DNA from: Pseudoxanthomonas dokdonensis
GTDB lineage: Bacteria; Pseudomonadota; Gammaproteobacteria; Xanthomonadales; Xanthomonadaceae
Direction: 5' to 3'
Length of the DNA stretch: 64,000 nucleotides
Assembly (NCBI RefSeq): GCF_001431405.1
Contig: NZ_LDJL01000007.1
Location: 186,001-250,000 of the forward strand
Part shown: positions 4,417 to 55,266 of the stretch, piece by piece
Layout of the letters: every line of letters begins with the position of its first letter
Numbering within the stretch: position 1 is the first letter of the stretch
Notes under the pieces: model-generated
Told to the model about the DNA's origin: nothing
The model's input: only the letters and a program-made list of their open reading frames with translations
Databases searched by the model: none
Program-made: the position numbers and the translations under genes

Positions 4417-5421
4417 ATGAGCATCGAACAGCTTGCCGAAACCGCCCAGGCGATGGTCGCCGCGGGCAAGGGCATCATCGCGATTGACGAGTCCACCGCC
4501 ACCATCGCCAAGCGCTTCGCCGGCGTCGGCATCGAGAACACCGAGGAAAACCGCCGTGCCTACCGCGAGCTGCTGCTGACCACGCCCAGGCTGAGCGACT
4601 ACATCTCCGGCGCCATCCTGTATGACGAAACCATCCGCCAGTCGACTCGCGACGGGGTGCCGTTCGCCAAGTACATGGCCGACAACGGCATCATCCCGGG
4701 GATCAAGGTCGACAAGGGCACCCACCCGCTGGCCGGCTGCCCGGGCGAAGTGGTCACCGAAGGCCTGGATGGCCTGCGCGACCGGCTCAAGGAGTACTAC
4801 AAGCTGGGCGCACGCTTCGCCAAGTGGCGCGCGGTGATCAACATCGGCGAGGACATCCCGTCCGGTACCGCCATCGAAGCCAATGCCCACGCGCTGGCCC
4901 GTTATGCCGCGTTGTGCCAGGAATGCGGCCTGGTGCCGATGGTCGAGCCGGAAGTGCTGATGGATGGCGACCACGACATCCAGACCTGCTACGAAGTCAC
5001 CGAAGCCACGCTGCGTTCGCTGTTCGGCGCACTGTACGAGCAGAACATCCTGCTGGAAGGCACCATCCTCAAGGCCTCGATGGTCGTGCCCGGCAAGGAC
5101 TGCGAAGAGCAGGCCAGCATCGAGGAAGTCGCCGAGTCCACCATCATGTGCCTGAAGAGCACGGTGCCGGCGATCCTGCCGGGCGTGGTGTTCCTGTCCG
5201 GTGGCCAGAGCGACGACGATGCCACCGCCCATCTCGACGCCATGAACCGCATCGGCAACCTGCCGTGGCCGCTGTCGTTCTCGTATGGCCGCGCCATGCA
5301 GTCGGCGGCACTGGCGCTGTGGTCGAAGGATCTGAAGGGCAACTTCGCCAAGGCCCAGTCCACCGTCTACGAACGCGCCAAGGCCAATGGCCTGGCCGCA
5401 CTGGGCAAGTGGGAAGGCTGA
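4417..5421 (+). CDS. fba: Fructose-bisphosphate aldolase, class I
   Basis: Reversibly cleaves fructose 1,6-bisphosphate to dihydroxyacetone phosphate and glyceraldehyde 3-phosphate. The 334-residue protein is the animal/plant-like class I type: the Schiff-base lysine is K219 in LLEGTILKASMVVPG, with supporting residues in KGIIAIDEST, GIKVDKG and FAKWRAV. The start at 4417 (MSIEQLAETA) matches the family N-terminus; reading frame upstream of it is not conserved. A terminator follows 43 bases after the stop. It is metal-independent, unlike the class II enzyme common in other gammaproteobacteria. Confidence 0.96.
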   Translation: MSIEQLAETAQAMVAAGKGIIAIDESTATIAKRFAGVGIENTEENRRAYRELLLTTPRLSDYISGAILYDETIRQSTRDGVPFAKYMADNGIIPGIKVDKGTHPLAGCPGEVVTEGLDGLRDRLKEYYKLGARFAKWRAVINIGEDIPSGTAIEANAHALARYAALCQECGLVPMVEPEVLMDGDHDIQTCYEVTEATLRSLFGALYEQNILLEGTILKASMVVPGKDCEEQASIEEVAESTIMCLKSTVPAILPGVVFLSGGQSDDDATAHLDAMNRIGNLPWPLSFSYGRAMQSAALALWSKDLKGNFAKAQSTVYERAKANGLAALGKWEG

Positions 5422-5513: not shown

Positions 5514-7790
5514 ATGGAACGCATCCGATTCCGCCGCTTGGCGGTCTACTTTCTTTCGTTCGGGCTGGCTCTGCCGGCATTGACCGGCACCGCCGCAGCT
5601 GCCAGCCATGACGATACCTACTTTGTCCGTCAGGAAGTCGGTCCGGTGGACGGGCCCGCACTGATCACCCAGCAGATGCTGATGCCGGTGACACTGGAAG
5701 CCGACGGTAAAGGCAGCCGCATGCGTGCAAGTACGGTCTGGTTCGAGCTGGATGCCGGCGCCGGTCAGCACGGTAGTTCCTACAAACTGGATGCCAGGTA
5801 TGCGGACGATGCAGCGGTCGCGGCGTTCCTGGCCAGTGGCATCGAGACCCGGGTCGATGGCAAGGGTCGCGTGGTGTCGGTGGGCGCTGCCGACCCGCAG
5901 GCGCTGGAAGCGGTGGCCAGACACCGGCCAGGTGTGCGTGATGCACTGGCCCGTATTGGTGATGCGGTCGGCTTGCGTCCATTCGTGCTTCCACGACGCC
6001 TGCACGTCGGTCAGCGCCTGCACGAGAAGCAGCAGGTGCCGGGGATAGGCGAACTGGCCTGGACGATGCAGGTCATGGCGGTCGGCGCCGAACAGGTGGA
6101 ACTTGAAATGCAGGCAACCGCGTCCGAGGGGACTTCACTGGCCGGCTATCAGATTCTGCGGCGGGATTCCGGCATGCCGGTGGAGGCGTGGTTGCAGATG
6201 TCATTGCCCGACGGGCTGGTGCCAGGCCATAGCGAGCCGATGCAACTGCGGATGCGGGTCATCAGCCAACATCATGCGAAGACGCTGAACGCGGTCCAGC
6301 AGGATGCGGAAACCTGGAAACGTTATGTCAATAACCTGCATGAGCTGGCAGCGTCACCTGAATTCCGTGGCGAAGTGGTGCCGACGGACGAGCTCAAGGA
6401 TCTGGACGGCAACCTGGAACGGGAGTTGATACTTCCACAGCGTTCGGAAGCCGAGTTGGAGCGCTTCCGCAATGGCCTGGTCTTTGCGCTTGATGGAACA
6501 GGAGGCACTCCGCGCCCGGAGATCAGGCTGGGCGGGCAATACGATGTGTCCTTGCCGGGCGAGTGGCCAAAAATGCTCCGCATGCGTTTGAAGCGGGCCC
6601 GTTTGCTGGATGCGAACGGTGAGCAGCTGCCGGGTGTCAAGACGGTCGCCAATCGCCTGTTCGAAAACATGGCCGCCGCGGAGTGGGAATTGAAAGAGCG
6701 CGACGAGGAATTCCCGTTCCGCTTGCCACCGGCGCTGCCGGCCGCGGCACTGGAAGGGCTGGCTGCAATAACACTGGAGCTGGAACTGGGCGAGTACGTA
6801 TTGCAGGACCGGACCGTGGTTGCCAATGGAAAACAGGCCGGATCATCGTCACCCGTTCTGGACTGGTCGACGCACTGGGTGGAGTTGAGGCAGCCCGAAC
6901 CGACTGGTGCCGAGCTCTGGGTCATTGCGCCGATGGACAAGCGGGGCCTTCCTGTCCGACACGGAGTCATTGAATATGACGATAAGCTGCTGCGTCCGGA
7001 ATCGGAAAACATGCGATGGCCACTTTACTCCTCGCAAGAGCATGACTGGCGCTACCGGGTACTGACCGCGGAACCCGTTGGTGCGGTCGAGCTGCGGCGT
7101 TACACGCTGAGGTGGCGGCCGACGACATGGACCTTCCGCAACGGCAAGGACATGCTGGACGGCGGCGCGCTGATAGGCGTCCGCCTTGCCGCTGAGCCGA
7201 CAGGTTTGCCGTCATCAACAGTATCCGGGCAGGCGCTGTTGGATGCTTTCGGCACGCTGGTCGATAAAACCGATAGTGGGGTGCGGATACCGCTGCATGG
7301 GGATCTGCAGGATGTTGCCGTCAGGTTCTGCGAAGTGGGCGCATCGTCGTTGGCGAACGTGCCTGCGGTTGGATGGGACAAACGCAGCCGTGAAGATATT
7401 TTCTGGTCACCCGACCACGAGGATTGGGTTGGCTGGTCCATCAGTCGGTTCGCCTTGGGTGATCAACCGGTAACCGCCCGGGCAAACTGTCCGGAGCGGA
7501 TCGAGCCGGCCGTCGAGCAGCTGCATCGTGGTAGTTGCTTCCAGGATCTCGGTAACGGTTACGTAGGCGTTGCCGCTGCCTGCAAGGCCGATGTGGATCG
7601 CGCACGCGAACAGGAGATGCTGGTGGCCCGCGATGCCCAGGGGCAACGATTGGCTGAACTTCCGGGCCCATCTGAAGAAGAGAATGAAGAGCGGCTACGC
7701 TTCTGGGGTCCGGTGGATACCATCGAGTACCTGCGGGTGGATGCATCGACGGTCCACCGCGACCTGCAGTTGCCGACAGCTGAACACTGA
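5514..7790 (+). CDS. Large secreted protein of unknown function
   Basis: A 758-residue protein I do not recognise. ATG at 5514 is chosen because AAGGAG lies 9 bases upstream and the residues after it form a signal peptide (basic MERIRFRR, hydrophobic VYFLSFGLALPAL, cleavage near TAAAA-SHDD), so it is exported to the periplasm or beyond. The mature part is rich in beta-type sequence with no membrane segment and no obvious catalytic motif. A cysteine-containing C-terminal third holds RFCEVG, ANCPERIE, GSCFQDL and AACKAD. Codon use appears less GC-biased than its neighbours, especially after 6300. It is flanked by the aldolase terminator and a minus-strand gene, so it is monocistronic. Confidence 0.85.
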   Translation: MERIRFRRLAVYFLSFGLALPALTGTAAAASHDDTYFVRQEVGPVDGPALITQQMLMPVTLEADGKGSRMRASTVWFELDAGAGQHGSSYKLDARYADDAAVAAFLASGIETRVDGKGRVVSVGAADPQALEAVARHRPGVRDALARIGDAVGLRPFVLPRRLHVGQRLHEKQQVPGIGELAWTMQVMAVGAEQVELEMQATASEGTSLAGYQILRRDSGMPVEAWLQMSLPDGLVPGHSEPMQLRMRVISQHHAKTLNAVQQDAETWKRYVNNLHELAASPEFRGEVVPTDELKDLDGNLERELILPQRSEAELERFRNGLVFALDGTGGTPRPEIRLGGQYDVSLPGEWPKMLRMRLKRARLLDANGEQLPGVKTVANRLFENMAAAEWELKERDEEFPFRLPPALPAAALEGLAAITLELELGEYVLQDRTVVANGKQAGSSSPVLDWSTHWVELRQPEPTGAELWVIAPMDKRGLPVRHGVIEYDDKLLRPESENMRWPLYSSQEHDWRYRVLTAEPVGAVELRRYTLRWRPTTWTFRNGKDMLDGGALIGVRLAAEPTGLPSSTVSGQALLDAFGTLVDKTDSGVRIPLHGDLQDVAVRFCEVGASSLANVPAVGWDKRSREDIFWSPDHEDWVGWSISRFALGDQPVTARANCPERIEPAVEQLHRGSCFQDLGNGYVGVAAACKADVDRAREQEMLVARDAQGQRLAELPGPSEEENEERLRFWGPVDTIEYLRVDASTVHRDLQLPTAEH

Positions 7791-14525: not shown

Positions 14526-14594
14526 GTAGAGCGGAGCCTGCTCCGCTGCGCGACAGCAAACGATGGAAGTGCGTAGAGCGGAGCTTGCTCCGCT
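14526..14594 (+). repeat. Two GTAG-headed REP palindromes
   Basis: Copies at 14526-14547 and 14573-14594. Each is GTAG followed by AGCGGAGC-(CT or TT)-GCTCCGCT, an 8-bp stem with a two-base loop. A third decayed half-copy starts near 14622. The same unit recurs at 33092, 47872 and 55084. The GTAG head is typical of REPs mobilised by TnpA-REP transposases in Stenotrophomonas and relatives; none is encoded here. Confidence 0.85.
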
Positions 14595-14632
14595 ACGCGA
14601 TCGCAAAAGATGGATGGTGCGTAGAACGGAAC

Positions 14633-15343: not shown

Positions 15344-16114
15344 TTACATGCCGCGGAACAGACTCATGAAGGCCTGGCTGACGGTCAGGGTTTCCGGGCG
15401 GTTGCGCAGCCGGACCACGCCCTTGCCGCTGTCATCGCGGGTGATGCCGGCGATGGCCTTGAGATTGACGATGGTGGAACGATGGATCTGCTTGAACACG
15501 TTGCCGTCCAGTGACTGCAGCAGCTCGCGCAGCGGCGTGCGCAGCAGCGCTTCGCCTTCGGCGGTCAGCACCGCGGTGTACTTGTTGTCGGCGCGGAAGT
15601 AGGCCACATCCTCGACCGGTATCAGCCGGGTTTCCTTGCCGGTGCTGGCGGTGATCCATGCCAGTGGCTCATGCGATGGCGCCGGCATGTGCCGGGCCAG
15701 TCGCTTGGCCAGCGCATCCAGGGTCGACAGATCCGGATGGTTGCCACCGGCGACGCGCGATTGCAGGCGGCGGATGGTCGCGTCCAGTCGTTCACGGGTG
15801 ATCGGCTTGAGCAGGTAGTCGATGGCGCCCTGCTCGAAGGCATCGACGGCGTACTGGTCGTAGGCGGTGACGAAAACGATCTGGGTATGCGGGCTGATGT
15901 CGGCGACCGCGGCTGCCACTTCCAGGCCGGTCAGGCCGGGCATGCGGATGTCCAGGAACGCCACGTCCGGTTGCTGTCCGGCGATCGCTTCGACCGCGCT
16001 GGCGCCGTCCTCGCATTCGGCGACGATGCGCAGCTCCGGCCAGCCGTCACGCAGCAGCGACGCCAGTGCGGTGCGCAGCAGTTCTTCGTCTTCGGCAATC
16101 ACGCACTCAAGCAC
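15344..16114 (-). CDS. LytTR-family response regulator
   Basis: Cytosolic two-component regulator of 256 residues. The receiver domain (about 1-120) has the acidic pair in IAEDEE, phospho-acceptor Asp55 in VAFLDIRMPG, the Thr in FVTAYD and the Lys in YLLKPI. The C-terminal half is a LytTR DNA-binding domain (VEDVAYFRADNKYTAVLT ... QIHRSTIVNL). The GTG at 16114 overlaps the kinase stop by 8 bases, which decides this start. The AlgR/LytR-type architecture points to control of envelope or surface functions, but targets are not visible. Confidence 0.92.
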   Translation of the reverse strand: MLECVIAEDEELLRTALASLLRDGWPELRIVAECEDGASAVEAIAGQQPDVAFLDIRMPGLTGLEVAAAVADISPHTQIVFVTAYDQYAVDAFEQGAIDYLLKPITRERLDATIRRLQSRVAGGNHPDLSTLDALAKRLARHMPAPSHEPLAWITASTGKETRLIPVEDVAYFRADNKYTAVLTAEGEALLRTPLRELLQSLDGNVFKQIHRSTIVNLKAIAGITRDDSGKGVVRLRNRPETLTVSQAFMSLFRGM

Positions 16115-17471
16115 GGGCCTGCTCCTGCGGCGGTGGCGGTGGCGGTGTCGTTGCGGCGGCGGGCTGGCGCGGCAGGTTGATGGTGGCGGCCACGCCATGC
16201 GGGAAGTTGGAGACAATCGCGAACGAAGCCCGCTGGCCATAGGTCAGCCGCAAGCGCTCACGGACATTGTTGAGGCCGATGCCGGTGCCGGCGGTCTGGG
16301 TGTTGAAACCCATGCCGTCATCGGCGACGGTCACCGCGACCTGGTCGTCGTGGGTCCGCGCCAGCAGCCAGATGGTGCCACCGCCGGGCTTCGGTTCCAG
16401 GCCATGTTTGATCGCATTCTCGACCAGTGTCTGCAGCATCATCGACGGCATCGGCAGGTCCAGCAGTTCGGCCGGCACATTGACGTGGGTGGTCAGGCGG
16501 TTGCCCATCCGGATCTTGAGGATTTCCAGATAGGCCTGCGCGCGCTCCAGTTCTTCGCCCAGGGTCGATTGCGCATCGACGCTGCGCGGCAGCGAGCGCC
16601 GCAGATAGTCGATCAGATGTCCCAGCATCAGATCCGCGCGCGCCGGATCGGTGCGGGTCAGCACCTGTGCGCTGGCCAGGGTGTTGTACAGGAAGTGCGG
16701 TTCGACCTGCGCGTGCAGCATGTTGAGCTTGGCAACGGTCAGTTCCTTTTCGGTGACCGTCTGCTGCACGCTGTCGCGCTCGCCACGACGCAGCTCGCCG
16801 ACCCGGCGGGTGATCGCGCGGCTGACCGCTTCAATGATTTCATGGTTGCTGCCGTCGTCGAGCAGCAGCAGGTCGGTCCACACCGGTGCGTTGGGGCCGC
16901 AGATAAGCATCACGCTGCTGCTGCTGCCACCGGGGCTGACCGTGGCCAGGATCTGGTCGTGCTTGACCGCCAGTCGTGCAAACACGTTGAAGCGCGACGG
17001 TGGCGCGTCACCGGCGATGTCGCGGCGGCGCACCAGTGCCCGTGCCTGCAGGCTGTCGCGGGCGCTCTCCAGCGCGGTGCTGCGCGGCAGTTCGCGCAGC
17101 GCGGCATCCAGCAGGTCGAAGGTCTGGCCGGCTTCCAGCGGTACTTCGATCTGGCGCCGCTGGCGGCTGGACAGGCTGGCGTGGTCCAGGCGCCCGGTCA
17201 GCAGCCATACTCGTCGCAGGTGCGAGACCAGACCGACCAGTACCGACACCATCAACAGCATCGCCAGCAGGCCGAACAACCAGCCCGGCCCTTCGTTCAT
17301 CCCATAGAAGAAGCCGCTCCAGACAAAGCCGGCGACGAAGATCGCGGCCGCCCAGGCGGCAAGGGTACGGAGTATGAGGAACAGGCTGGCGAACACGGGA
17401 AGGGCCGGCAGGAAGGGATTGCCGGGCAGCATACCGACACATTCGGCGAGGGTGTGGATGCAGGCGACCAA
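16107..17471 (-). CDS. LytS/YehU-type membrane sensor histidine kinase
   Basis: A 454-residue inner-membrane kinase with two membrane segments (about 28-52 and 64-84), a cytosolic linker, a His_kinase domain with phospho-accepting His259 in VEPHFLYNTLA, and an ATPase domain with N-box LVENAIKHGLE and G-box GTGIGLNNVRERL. A proline run near the C-terminus is low complexity. It is translationally coupled to the LytTR regulator, its obvious partner. The upstream region is the repeat-rich gap, so a promoter probably lies close to 17480. Confidence 0.9.
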   Translation of the reverse strand: MVACIHTLAECVGMLPGNPFLPALPVFASLFLILRTLAAWAAAIFVAGFVWSGFFYGMNEGPGWLFGLLAMLLMVSVLVGLVSHLRRVWLLTGRLDHASLSSRQRRQIEVPLEAGQTFDLLDAALRELPRSTALESARDSLQARALVRRRDIAGDAPPSRFNVFARLAVKHDQILATVSPGGSSSSVMLICGPNAPVWTDLLLLDDGSNHEIIEAVSRAITRRVGELRRGERDSVQQTVTEKELTVAKLNMLHAQVEPHFLYNTLASAQVLTRTDPARADLMLGHLIDYLRRSLPRSVDAQSTLGEELERAQAYLEILKIRMGNRLTTHVNVPAELLDLPMPSMMLQTLVENAIKHGLEPKPGGGTIWLLARTHDDQVAVTVADDGMGFNTQTAGTGIGLNNVRERLRLTYGQRASFAIVSNFPHGVAATINLPRQPAAATTPPPPPPQEQARA

Positions 17472-17572
17472 ACCCCGGATGACGCGATGAAACCGGTCTC
17501 CGCGGGGATGAAATCAGCTGTGCTGGAGTCTGTGGAAGGCCAGAACAAGCGTACAAGCAAAAAACTACCCAT

Positions 17573-17776
17573 CGTCATCCCGGCGAGCGCCGGGCTTTTA
17601 GCCGACGGATGTTGGGTCATCCAGCCGCTTGGTCTCGGTGCCAGGCAACGGGCTGGATGACTGGAGATGGTCAGTTGAAAGCCCAGCGTTGGCTGCAATG
17701 ACGGGTGTTTCGAGGGCGGAGGACTGACCTGCGGAGGTTACGCAAAGGCTGGATCCCGGCGTTCGCCGGGATGACG
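17573..17776. repeat. Inverted pair of GTCAT-headed REP palindromes enclosing an inverted repeat
   Basis: Left copy CGTCAT-CCCGGCG-AG-CGCCGGG (17573-17594), right copy CCCGGCG-TT-CGCCGGG-ATGACG (about 17755-17776), in opposite orientation. Between them GTCATCCAGCC (17616-17626) and GGCTGGATGAC (17651-17661) form an 11-bp perfect stem. No protein reading frame is credible here. This is a second REP family, distinct from the GTAG type, and resembles a bacterial interspersed mosaic element. Confidence 0.8.
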
Positions 17777-18032
17777 AGTATTTATCGGGCTGACGAGTAT
17801 CTATCGGGATGACGAGCGTTTACCGGGATGACGAGCGTTTATCAGGATGACGAGTGTTTATCGGGATGACGAGCGTTTATCGGGATGACGAGTGTTTATC
17901 GGGATGACGAGTGTTTATCGGGATGACGAGTGTTTATCGGGATGACGAGTGTTTATCGGGATGACGAGCGTTTATCGGGATGACGAGTATCTATCGGGAT
18001 GACGAGTGCTTATCGGGATGATGAGGATTTAC
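17767..18032. repeat. 19-bp tandem array, 14 copies
   Basis: Consensus CGGGATGACGAGTGTTTAT repeats at exactly 19-base steps from 17767 to about 18032 with substitutions but no length change. The first copy is the tail of the REP at 17755-17776, so the array appears to have grown from it. Degenerate remnants continue to about 18070. The interval 18070-18166 up to cysH shows nothing else. Confidence 0.95.
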
Positions 18033-18166
18033 AGGGAGGAGTGCTCGCCGGGATGACGAGTGCTCAACGGCGTTGGCGGGCAGAGAAGCTGAAAGCACTC
18101 ATCCGCTGTCCGCTGTCGATGGTTGACCTCCGGTAGCGGGTGCGGAACAGATTCTCCGGCAGCTGG

Positions 18167-18889
18167 TCAGATCTCGGTGTGCAGGCCGCATTCGCGCTTG
18201 AGGCCGAAGAAGCGGGTGTCTTCTTCGCTCATGCCCGGTTCCCAGCGGGCGGTGGTGTGGATGTCGCCGATCGAGACGTAGCCCTGTTCCCACAATGGGT
18301 GATAGGGCAGCTCATGCGCTTTCAGGTACTGCCACACGTCGCGGTCGGTCCAGTCGGCGATCGGGTTGACCTTCAGGCGACCGTCGCGCTGCTGCAGGAT
18401 CGGGGTGTTGGCACGGCTGCTGGCCTGGCTGCGGCGCAGCCCGGTGAACCAGGTGCCGACCTGCAGTTCCTGCAGGGCGCGTTTCATCGGTTCGACCTTG
18501 CGCAGGTTGTTGTACTGCTCGATGCCGACCAGACCCTGTTCCCACAGCCGGCCGTGGCGTGCTTCCATCCAGGCGCGGCTGACCAGTGGCCGGTACACCT
18601 GCAGGTTGAGCTTCAGGCGCTCGCTCAGCTGATCGGCAAAGCGATAGGTTTCCGGGAACAGGTAGCCGGTGTCGATCAGAATCACCGGGATGTCCGGCTG
18701 CTGCTCGGTCAGCATGTGCAGCAACACCGCCGCCTGCGCGCCGAAGCTGGAAGACAGCGCCGGCTTGCCGTGGCCATGTTGCAGCGCCCAGCGCACGCGT
18801 TCGGGCGCACTGGCGGCTTCCAGCATCTGGTTGTGGCTGGCGATGCTGTCCTGGAATGGCAGTATTGCAGCGCGGGACGGGGCATTCAT
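18167..18889 (-). CDS. cysH: Phosphoadenylyl-sulfate reductase
   Basis: Reduces PAPS to sulfite with thioredoxin as donor. The 240-residue protein has the modified P-loop region [45 protein letters not shown] and the catalytic C-terminal ECGLH. It lacks the CC...CxxC iron-sulfur motif of APS reductases, consistent with a PAPS-using enzyme and with the CysC domain encoded in the divergent operon. Start overlaps the cysI stop by 4 bases (ATGA). Last gene of the cysJIH operon. Confidence 0.95.
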
Positions 18890-33087: not shown

Positions 33088-33091
33088 TCCC

Positions 33092-33264
33092 GTAGAGCGG
33101 AGCTCGCTCCGCTGACCAACCGATCAGCCGCCGACACGCAGATGCCGCACAGCGTAGAGCGGAGCTTGCTCCGCTGAACAAATCGATCACTCGCCGACAC
33201 GCAGATGCCGCACAGCGTAGAGCGGAGCTTGCTCCGCTGCACAACTCGCCGACACGCAGATGTC
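33092..33264 (+). repeat. Tandem array of REP-containing 61-64-bp units
   Basis: Three GTAG-type REPs at 33092-33113, 33153-33174 and 33217-33238, each followed by a similar spacer containing CGCCGACACGCAGATG. Spacing is 61 then 64 bases. A fourth decayed unit begins near 33276. It fills the gap between the methyltransferase and the converging minus-strand gene. Confidence 0.9.
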
Positions 33265-50193: not shown

Positions 50194-50220
50194 GGTGACA
50201 GCTCAACGCTGAATGCTGGA

Positions 50221-50306
50221 CCCCGGCGTTCGCCGGGGTGACGAATCAAAAAGGGCTGGTTACTCAAAGAGGGCTGGTTACTCAAAGAGGGTTGGCTACA
50301 AGAAGA
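50221..50306 (+). repeat. REP followed by an 18-bp tandem repeat
   Basis: CCCCGGCG-TT-CGCCGGGG (50221-50238) followed by TGACGA, the same family as at 17573-17776. It is followed by GGGCTGGTTACTCAAAGA at 50253, 50271 and, diverged, 50289. The unit differs from the 19-bp array elsewhere, but the arrangement is the same. Confidence 0.85.
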
Positions 50307-55083: not shown

Positions 55084-55266
55084 GTAGAGCGGAGCTTGCT
55101 CCGCTGCACGGCATTCCTATTCATCTCCGCTGCACGGCATAGCCATCGATGTCGTTATTGCAGCAAGCTGCACGGTTCAGCGGAGCAGGGTGCGTGATTC
55201 AGCGGAGCAGGGTGCATGGTTCAGCGGAGAAAGCTGCGTGATTCAGCGGAGCAAGCTCCGCTCTAC
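55084..55266. repeat. REP cluster with a 22-bp tandem repeat
   Basis: A GTAG-type REP at 55084-55105 (plus strand) and an inverted copy at 55245-55266 bound the cluster. CAGCGGAGC starts at 55178, 55200, 55222 and 55244, exactly 22 bases apart, forming four tandem units whose last runs into the inverted REP. It fills the gap between the converging ppc and uup genes; no separate terminator is visible. Confidence 0.9.

Follow-up and report, generated by a model that had tools for sequence, protein, structure and literature searches.

REPs rank with the most common repeats in bacteria, and we know of no enzyme that mobilises the CGTC superfamily. The locus described here raises the question of how a REP of this superfamily came to carry, against one of its two ends, a long tandem array built in part from its own sequence. 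The window, that is the whole stretch of DNA analysed (64,000 nucleotides of Pseudoxanthomonas dokdonensis, assembly GCF_001431405.1, contig NZ_LDJL01000007.1, positions 186,001 to 250,000), contains the cysH gene coding for PAPS reductase (18167-18889, minus strand), for which the best-ranked named match is Pseudoxanthomonas, at 79%. The next gene downstream on the minus strand is an ORF for a sensor histidine kinase (16107-17471, minus strand, His_kinase and HATPase_c). Between the two, the 3' end of cysH borders the array region, and two CGTC REPs are present: a left one on the plus strand (17573-17599), with its CGTC tag at 17573 and a decayed tail-side end, and a right one on the minus strand (17750-17776), which has the perfect consensus. 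These partners are inverted with their tails facing, so that the array extends outward from a head, the tagged end of the right REP.

The right REP exhibits CGTC at one foot, an 8-bp stem starting with AT, a 4-nt loop and a CCA tail, and it folds as 8/4/8 into a hairpin of -9 kcal/mol as single-stranded DNA. Its tag, stem length, loop and tail are marks of the CGTC-1 family. The element is also dispersed, with 40 sites in the genome, and its family flanks no transposase gene as far as Y1 transposases are concerned, both such genes lying among GTAG-type repeats. A RAYT-REPtron of the GTAG type was considered for the array-bearing REP and rejected: the tag is CGTC and not GTAG, and no RAYT gene stands beside the cognate REPs.

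The array itself is composed of 14 units at exact 19-base steps (17767-18032, no strand assigned), which differ from one another by substitutions and by no indel; TRF reported 13.6 copies with 91% matches, 0% indels and a score of 420. Each unit holds 10 bp of REP stem and tag and 9 bp of flank. The consensus opens with the ten bases CGGGATGACG, corresponding to the outer stem and tag of the REP, with the nine flank bases after them, and unit one consists of the outer portion of the right arm, the tag and the flank of the right REP (17750-17776). The original prediction, made on this DNA from the sequence alone, had described fourteen 19-base steps with substitutions only and had derived the first unit from the right-hand REP end; the TRF result and a unit-by-unit reading agree with the former, and the latter is also correct, the REP being that at 17750-17776. 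Beyond 18032, a decayed unit and a half-REP, CGCCGGGATGACG (18046-18058), make up a decayed array end (18033-18067, no strand), which places the true end of the array near 18067. Its tandem units are longer than 6 bp, as in a minisatellite. A CRISPR array was rejected, as the units run head to tail, the 9-bp flank is repeated too and there are no unique spacers. An iteron array was rejected as well, the neighbours being cysH and the histidine kinase gene, with no replication initiator gene. The array stretch 17786-17900 folded no better than its shuffles on either strand, and nothing matching 17560-18100 was found in the plasmid and phage collections.

We compared 109 cysH loci (80 + 29, from overlapping sets), in 31 of which the kinase gene adjoins cysH. 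The gap between the two genes is 102-340 bp in 29 of these 31 loci and 1074 bp in the two others, which are probably one genome present in both sets, versus 695 bp here. No CGTC-REP motif was found within 700 bp beside cysH in the 31 loci except in two, where it lies near 690 bp and the gap measures only 105 bp. When 17472-18889 was searched at the DNA level against 61 genomes, the cysH part was matched in 33 of 36 congeners and, among the matches listed, no cysH match extends into the array. As relatives carry neither the REP pair nor the array at this locus, both are derived in this lineage.

In this genome, arrays at CGTC REPs are confined to the head side. Allowing up to 3 mismatches and merging both-strand duplicates gave the 40 CGTC REP sites, and a REP was scored as bearing an array when 2.5 or more tandem copies lay within 40 bp of it. 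Head-side arrays were found at 6/40 REPs and tail-side arrays at 0/40, with the same counts at a second TRF cut-off. In a 400-kb sample of each of two other genomes, arrays were present at 3/42 heads (G208) and 3/40 heads (G546), and at no tail. Pooling the three genomes gives 12/122 heads versus 0/122 tails (Fisher p = 0.0004). As background, 31, 7 and 15 of 1500 random intergenic points lie near arrays in this genome, G208 and G546, respectively (53/4500 pooled); the points come from a crude gene caller, by which 15/16, 28/42 and 39/40 of the REPs are noncoding, and a small number of the 1500 that fell close to block ends were passed over yet kept in the denominator. The excess of heads over these points is significant in each genome (binomial p = 0.00016, 0.0010 and 0.0075, respectively) and in the pool (12/122 versus 53/4500, p = 8e-8).

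These counts bear on coincidence, the explanation under which REPs are common, tandem repeats are common and the two meet by chance. No array stands at 34 of the 40 CGTC REPs of this genome, and the 1.217 Mb examined (a third of the genome) yielded 127 tandem-repeat rows, only a few of them at CGTC REPs. The original prediction would have been given up if most REPs lacked arrays and most arrays lacked REPs, and this is literally what was found; the excess of arrays at CGTC heads nevertheless means that the link between REP and array is not coincidental. With this excess over random points in three genomes, and with units that contain REP stem and tag, we consider coincidence hardly credible. 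The general claim that REP ends seed tandem duplication therefore holds for CGTC REPs and for one of their ends (6/40 heads versus 31/1500 random points, p = 0.00016, with an excess in the two other genomes); it had pooled two superfamilies and left the one-sidedness unmentioned.

The six head arrays of this genome have periods of 6, 12, 18, 19, 28 and 34, and in three of the six the unit is free of REP sequence and starts 2, 21 or 30 bp outside the tag. Within the window, the CGTC REP variant CGTCACCCCGGCGAACGCCGGGGTCCA (50217-50243, minus strand) is accompanied by three 18-bp units (50246-50299, no strand), which begin 2 bp outside its head and contain no REP sequence. Elsewhere, a 12-bp array of about 13 copies of GAGCACTTGCTT, also with a REP-free unit, lies about 30 bp outside a CGTC REP head (L036, C33:44105, locus positions about 1555-1700). 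A head-side array of 34-bp half-REP units (L042/L265, C9:171443-171703) and one of 28-bp units containing CGTC (L034, C32:86462-86782) were also observed. Three CGTC REPs in direct orientation stand about 278 bp apart with their surroundings repeated, which makes them a longer tandem repeat (C12:11748-12328, L026-L028).

Layouts similar to that of the 19-bp array had been proposed at 33092, 50221 and 55178, and they turned out to be of three kinds. The site at 50217-50299 is a CGTC REP with an array in the same kind of place, built of the REP-free unit described above. At 55178, the array (55162-55257) is of a similar kind, with 22-bp partial-REP units, but it belongs to the other superfamily, GTAG, and to the other end, the tail. 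The site at 33092 is not a REP-end array: 33091-33248 holds 2.5 copies of a 63-bp unit with a whole GTAG REP and is a cluster of such elements. The stretch 14526-14630 is likewise a cluster of whole GTAG REPs.

The arrangement recurs in many genomes. Three close-spaced copies of the head half (CGGGATGACG) were found in 4/297 genomes of the family. A head-half pattern one base shorter gave 24/397 genomes in the order and 11/369 in the class, both counts including this genome. Among the 24, the match in G588 is a simple repeat of 8 bp, and G588 was excluded from the set of 33 genomes used below. The tail-half pattern was matched in 2/297 genomes of the family and 1/397 of the order, and a shorter tail pattern in 1/24 and 1/10 array-bearing genomes; every tail-half match listed is a tandem of whole REPs. 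We read 66 arrays from the 33 genomes, some matches of the order and class scans lying outside this set. Six are at contig ends. Of the other 60, 47 have a full hairpin at the innermost copy, none has one at the outermost copy alone, and in 13 no hairpin was seen; only innermost and outermost results were used, as the hairpin test on later copies also catches a neighbouring full REP. Five of the 47 arrays with an innermost hairpin have a hairpin in every copy. The unit retains most of the hairpin in G129 and G510, and G105 has one whole-REP site and one half-REP site.

As the pattern requires three intact cores, the scans undercount arrays. Head-side arrays are present in G306 and G298, which were outside the pattern scans, and in G317, which was scanned and gave no match; the three loci were chosen from array-like matches of the 17472-18889 DNA search and stand outside the counts. 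The array of the congener G306 (L366, G306:C276) has units of about 15 bp whose cores are mostly decayed, that of G317 (L367, G317:C50) is a CGTC array of decayed or irregular units, and that of G298 is short. The congener G298 also holds a dense cluster of CGTC REPs, many of them oriented alike and spaced at roughly 100-200 bp (L368, G298:C111:900-2600). The 1.5-Mb genome G643 (L342, L357, L362-L365) gave 51 head-half matches, the most in the class scan, with four whole-REP tandems. At one further locus (L336), an 18-bp half-REP array lies between two REPs facing head to head.

Across the 33 genomes, unit lengths span 16-41 bp and peak at 18-19 bp, lengths found in 12 of the 33; counted per genome-period combination, this peak was not attained by a uniform draw over the allowed range in 20000 trials. 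The start of the unit coincides with the border between loop and head arm, or lies close to it, in several arrays, whose copies carry the whole head arm and the tag and not the tail arm. In other arrays a smaller portion of the arm is shared, and at some long-loop REPs a portion of the loop is. An overlap measure at the outer array border, used as a microhomology check, was negative in 42/54 arrays, where the sequence past the last unit has mutated or was never like the unit flank, so that a simple duplication of arm and flank is not demonstrable there.

The preferred 18-19 bp length is one of the points that could speak for a function maintaining the arrays, with selection acting on the repeated GGGATGACG as a putative binding site or feature of a transcript. 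Within the units of the 19-bp array, the core derived from the REP is also less changed than the flank (mismatches to the consensus at 3/140 versus 14/126 positions, p = 0.004, a value overstated by the shared ancestry of the units), and several arrays elsewhere combine strongly diverged flanks with intact cores. Over 30 arrays the core and flank counts are 45/1188 versus 213/1580, but nearly all of these arrays were selected by their core, and arrays found by an intact core are unable to test selection on it. The G306 array, found without the core pattern, has decayed cores in most units. Moreover, the array is missing from this locus in relatives, three of the six head arrays here have no core, and the Rfam matches (sR7, CsrB and sR23) are all below the gathering score and were taken as chance. 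We regard a maintained function as unlikely.

The GTAG REPs of this genome, which we take to be SMAG-like, offer a second superfamily for comparison. Among 130 that were sampled, an array lies within 40 bp of the head in 38 and of the tail in 47; most of these arrays hold the whole element, and the whole-element ones lie on both sides (36 head, 41 tail). This whole-element test, which allowed three mismatches, passed the 55162 array, and the units were then tested more strictly for the presence of a hairpin. No hairpin was present in the unit of 2/38 head arrays and 6/47 tail arrays. Both head rows are one 7-bp REP-free array touching two REPs. The six tail rows are four partial-unit arrays (55162-55257, L204 at about 6906-6985, L216 at about 108-196 and L231 at about 4710-4809), and those of L216 and L231 are enclosed by a pair whose tails face each other. 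REP-derived partial-unit arrays were seen at one end in each superfamily, the head for CGTC and the tail for GTAG, the GTAG numbers being small (6/130 versus 2/130 sides).

For the cause of the duplication, the original prediction had named replication slippage or nicking by a REP transposase, and it had proposed looking for a RAYT gene. Two Y1_Tnp genes were found in the genome, both flanked by GTAG-type repeats and not by CGTC REPs. The first (L052, C3:472742-473029) lies between two blocks of alternating GTAG REPs, as in a typical RAYT cluster, and the second (L053, C12:138578-138841) is flanked by a different GTAG-led repeat (GTAGCCCGGGTAAGGCC...). Besides the presence of these genes, the activity of TnpA-REP, which according to the part of the source available cuts single-stranded DNA 5' and 3' of the REP with the 5' tetranucleotide helping site choice (PMC8266576), would fit a nicking origin of the CGTC arrays. 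Both genes are however embedded in GTAG-type repeats, and the survey of Di Nocera et al. 2013 (PMC3733652), in its available portion, describes CGTC REPs as not associated with transposase genes. RAYT nicking is thus not supported and appears very unlikely for the CGTC arrays.

We tentatively favour, with somewhat less than even confidence, the reading that the array is a minisatellite specific to this lineage, which a CGTC REP seeded through end-specific, directed copying. The REP pair would have come to sit between cysH and the sensor kinase gene, and the head half of the right REP (stem arm and GACG, i.e. the CGTC tag), with a few outside flank bases, would then have been duplicated outward, the later growth of the array proceeding by ordinary slippage or unequal exchange. 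Most probably, copying of the CGTC strand would start in the head flank, pass the tag and the first stem arm, halt at the hairpin and restart in the flank. The start or restart would be directed by a factor recognising the asymmetric foot of the hairpin, which would account for the one-sidedness, and the array would have no function of its own. No candidate enzyme for such directed copying was found.

The main rival, which we hold to be quite possible, is passive replication slippage at the hairpin with neither foot recognised, where a REP pair would form a long hairpin with the heads at its base and the polymerase would slip there. The strong hairpin of the right REP, the inverted partner present on the tail side of many array-bearing CGTC REPs and the partial-unit arrays at GTAG hairpins are all consistent with it, and slippage is the ordinary way for arrays to grow. 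It meets a difficulty in the symmetry of the element: the two arms of one REP are alike in sequence, and slippage at one hairpin would thus be expected on both sides. Where no tail-side partner was detected within 200 bp, CGTC REPs are nonetheless one-sided, with arrays at 5 heads versus 0 tails of 45, as are the paired ones, with 7 heads versus 0 tails of 77. Single REPs may, on the other hand, be former pairs, and the head would then be the outer side of a large hairpin. Of the four GTAG arrays, two (L216 and L231) lie between facing tails, the opposite of what slippage at the base of a pair predicts. Hairpins that are neither CGTC nor GTAG REPs exhibit no such excess, with arrays at 6/360 sides, a count in which two of this genome's three matches are the CGTCAC REP at 50219 and the opposite side of its 18-bp array. 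The replication strand showed no bias, nine arrays dividing into 5 lagging and 4 leading, a small number drawn from five complete genomes with the terminus assumed opposite dnaA and some genome lengths rounded. Slippage, one of the two causes originally named, is therefore a possible one, and alone it does not explain why one end is affected.

Directed copying could also be framed more broadly. The GTAG partial-unit arrays on tails (six tails, four arrays, 130 REPs) indicate that the effect extends beyond the CGTC tag. An activity might read the polarity of the REP hairpin and cut the DNA, or restart its synthesis, a few bases beyond a single foot, which would be the CGTC foot for CGTC REPs and the tail foot for GTAG REPs. 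We hold this extension to be doubtful, although by analogy with TnpA-REP, which uses the 5' tetranucleotide as a cutting guide, a polarity-reading enzyme would be a natural idea. If it were true, one-sided half-REP arrays, many of whose units measure 18-19 bp, would be scars of this activity and could be used to find it. The scar left on one side, at the tagged end, offers a testable way into the question of what acts on CGTC REPs, and the heads of these REPs are a possible source of new bacterial minisatellites.

Half-REP arrays, or one-sided arrays at CGTC REPs, had no account in the open literature searched, subscription journals being mostly outside the search. Four known systems come close to the present case. 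The nearest within the same genome are the GTAG REPs with their RAYT genes, which resemble the CGTC case in being abundant and in bearing tandem arrays, four partial-unit ones included; they differ from it in that most of their arrays are of whole elements and lie on both sides, and in that the partial-unit ones are tail-side. The CGTC-1 elements, as described in the available part of Di Nocera et al. 2013 (PMC3733652), have the same CGTC at one foot, AT-starting 8-bp stem, 4-nt loop and CCA tail, and also occur in pairs. What that part of the survey reports is rare clusters or dimers of whole elements, and the words 'half' and 'slippage' are absent from its main text. The tandem REPIN clusters of Pseudomonas fluorescens SBW25 (Bertels and Rainey 2011, PMC3116915), as presented in the portion of that paper available, are likewise REP-based tandem repeats that include flank; their units are however whole REPINs, the clusters lie also beside RAYT genes, and they are not one-sided half-REPs. 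Finally, the BrickBuilt MITE minisatellite of Porphyromonas gingivalis, according to the accessible part of its description (PMC4596501), is a 23-bp minisatellite within an intergenic element with inverted-repeat ends. BrickBuilt is one dispersed element with a fixed plan, whereas in the arrays described here unit length and flank differ at each locus.
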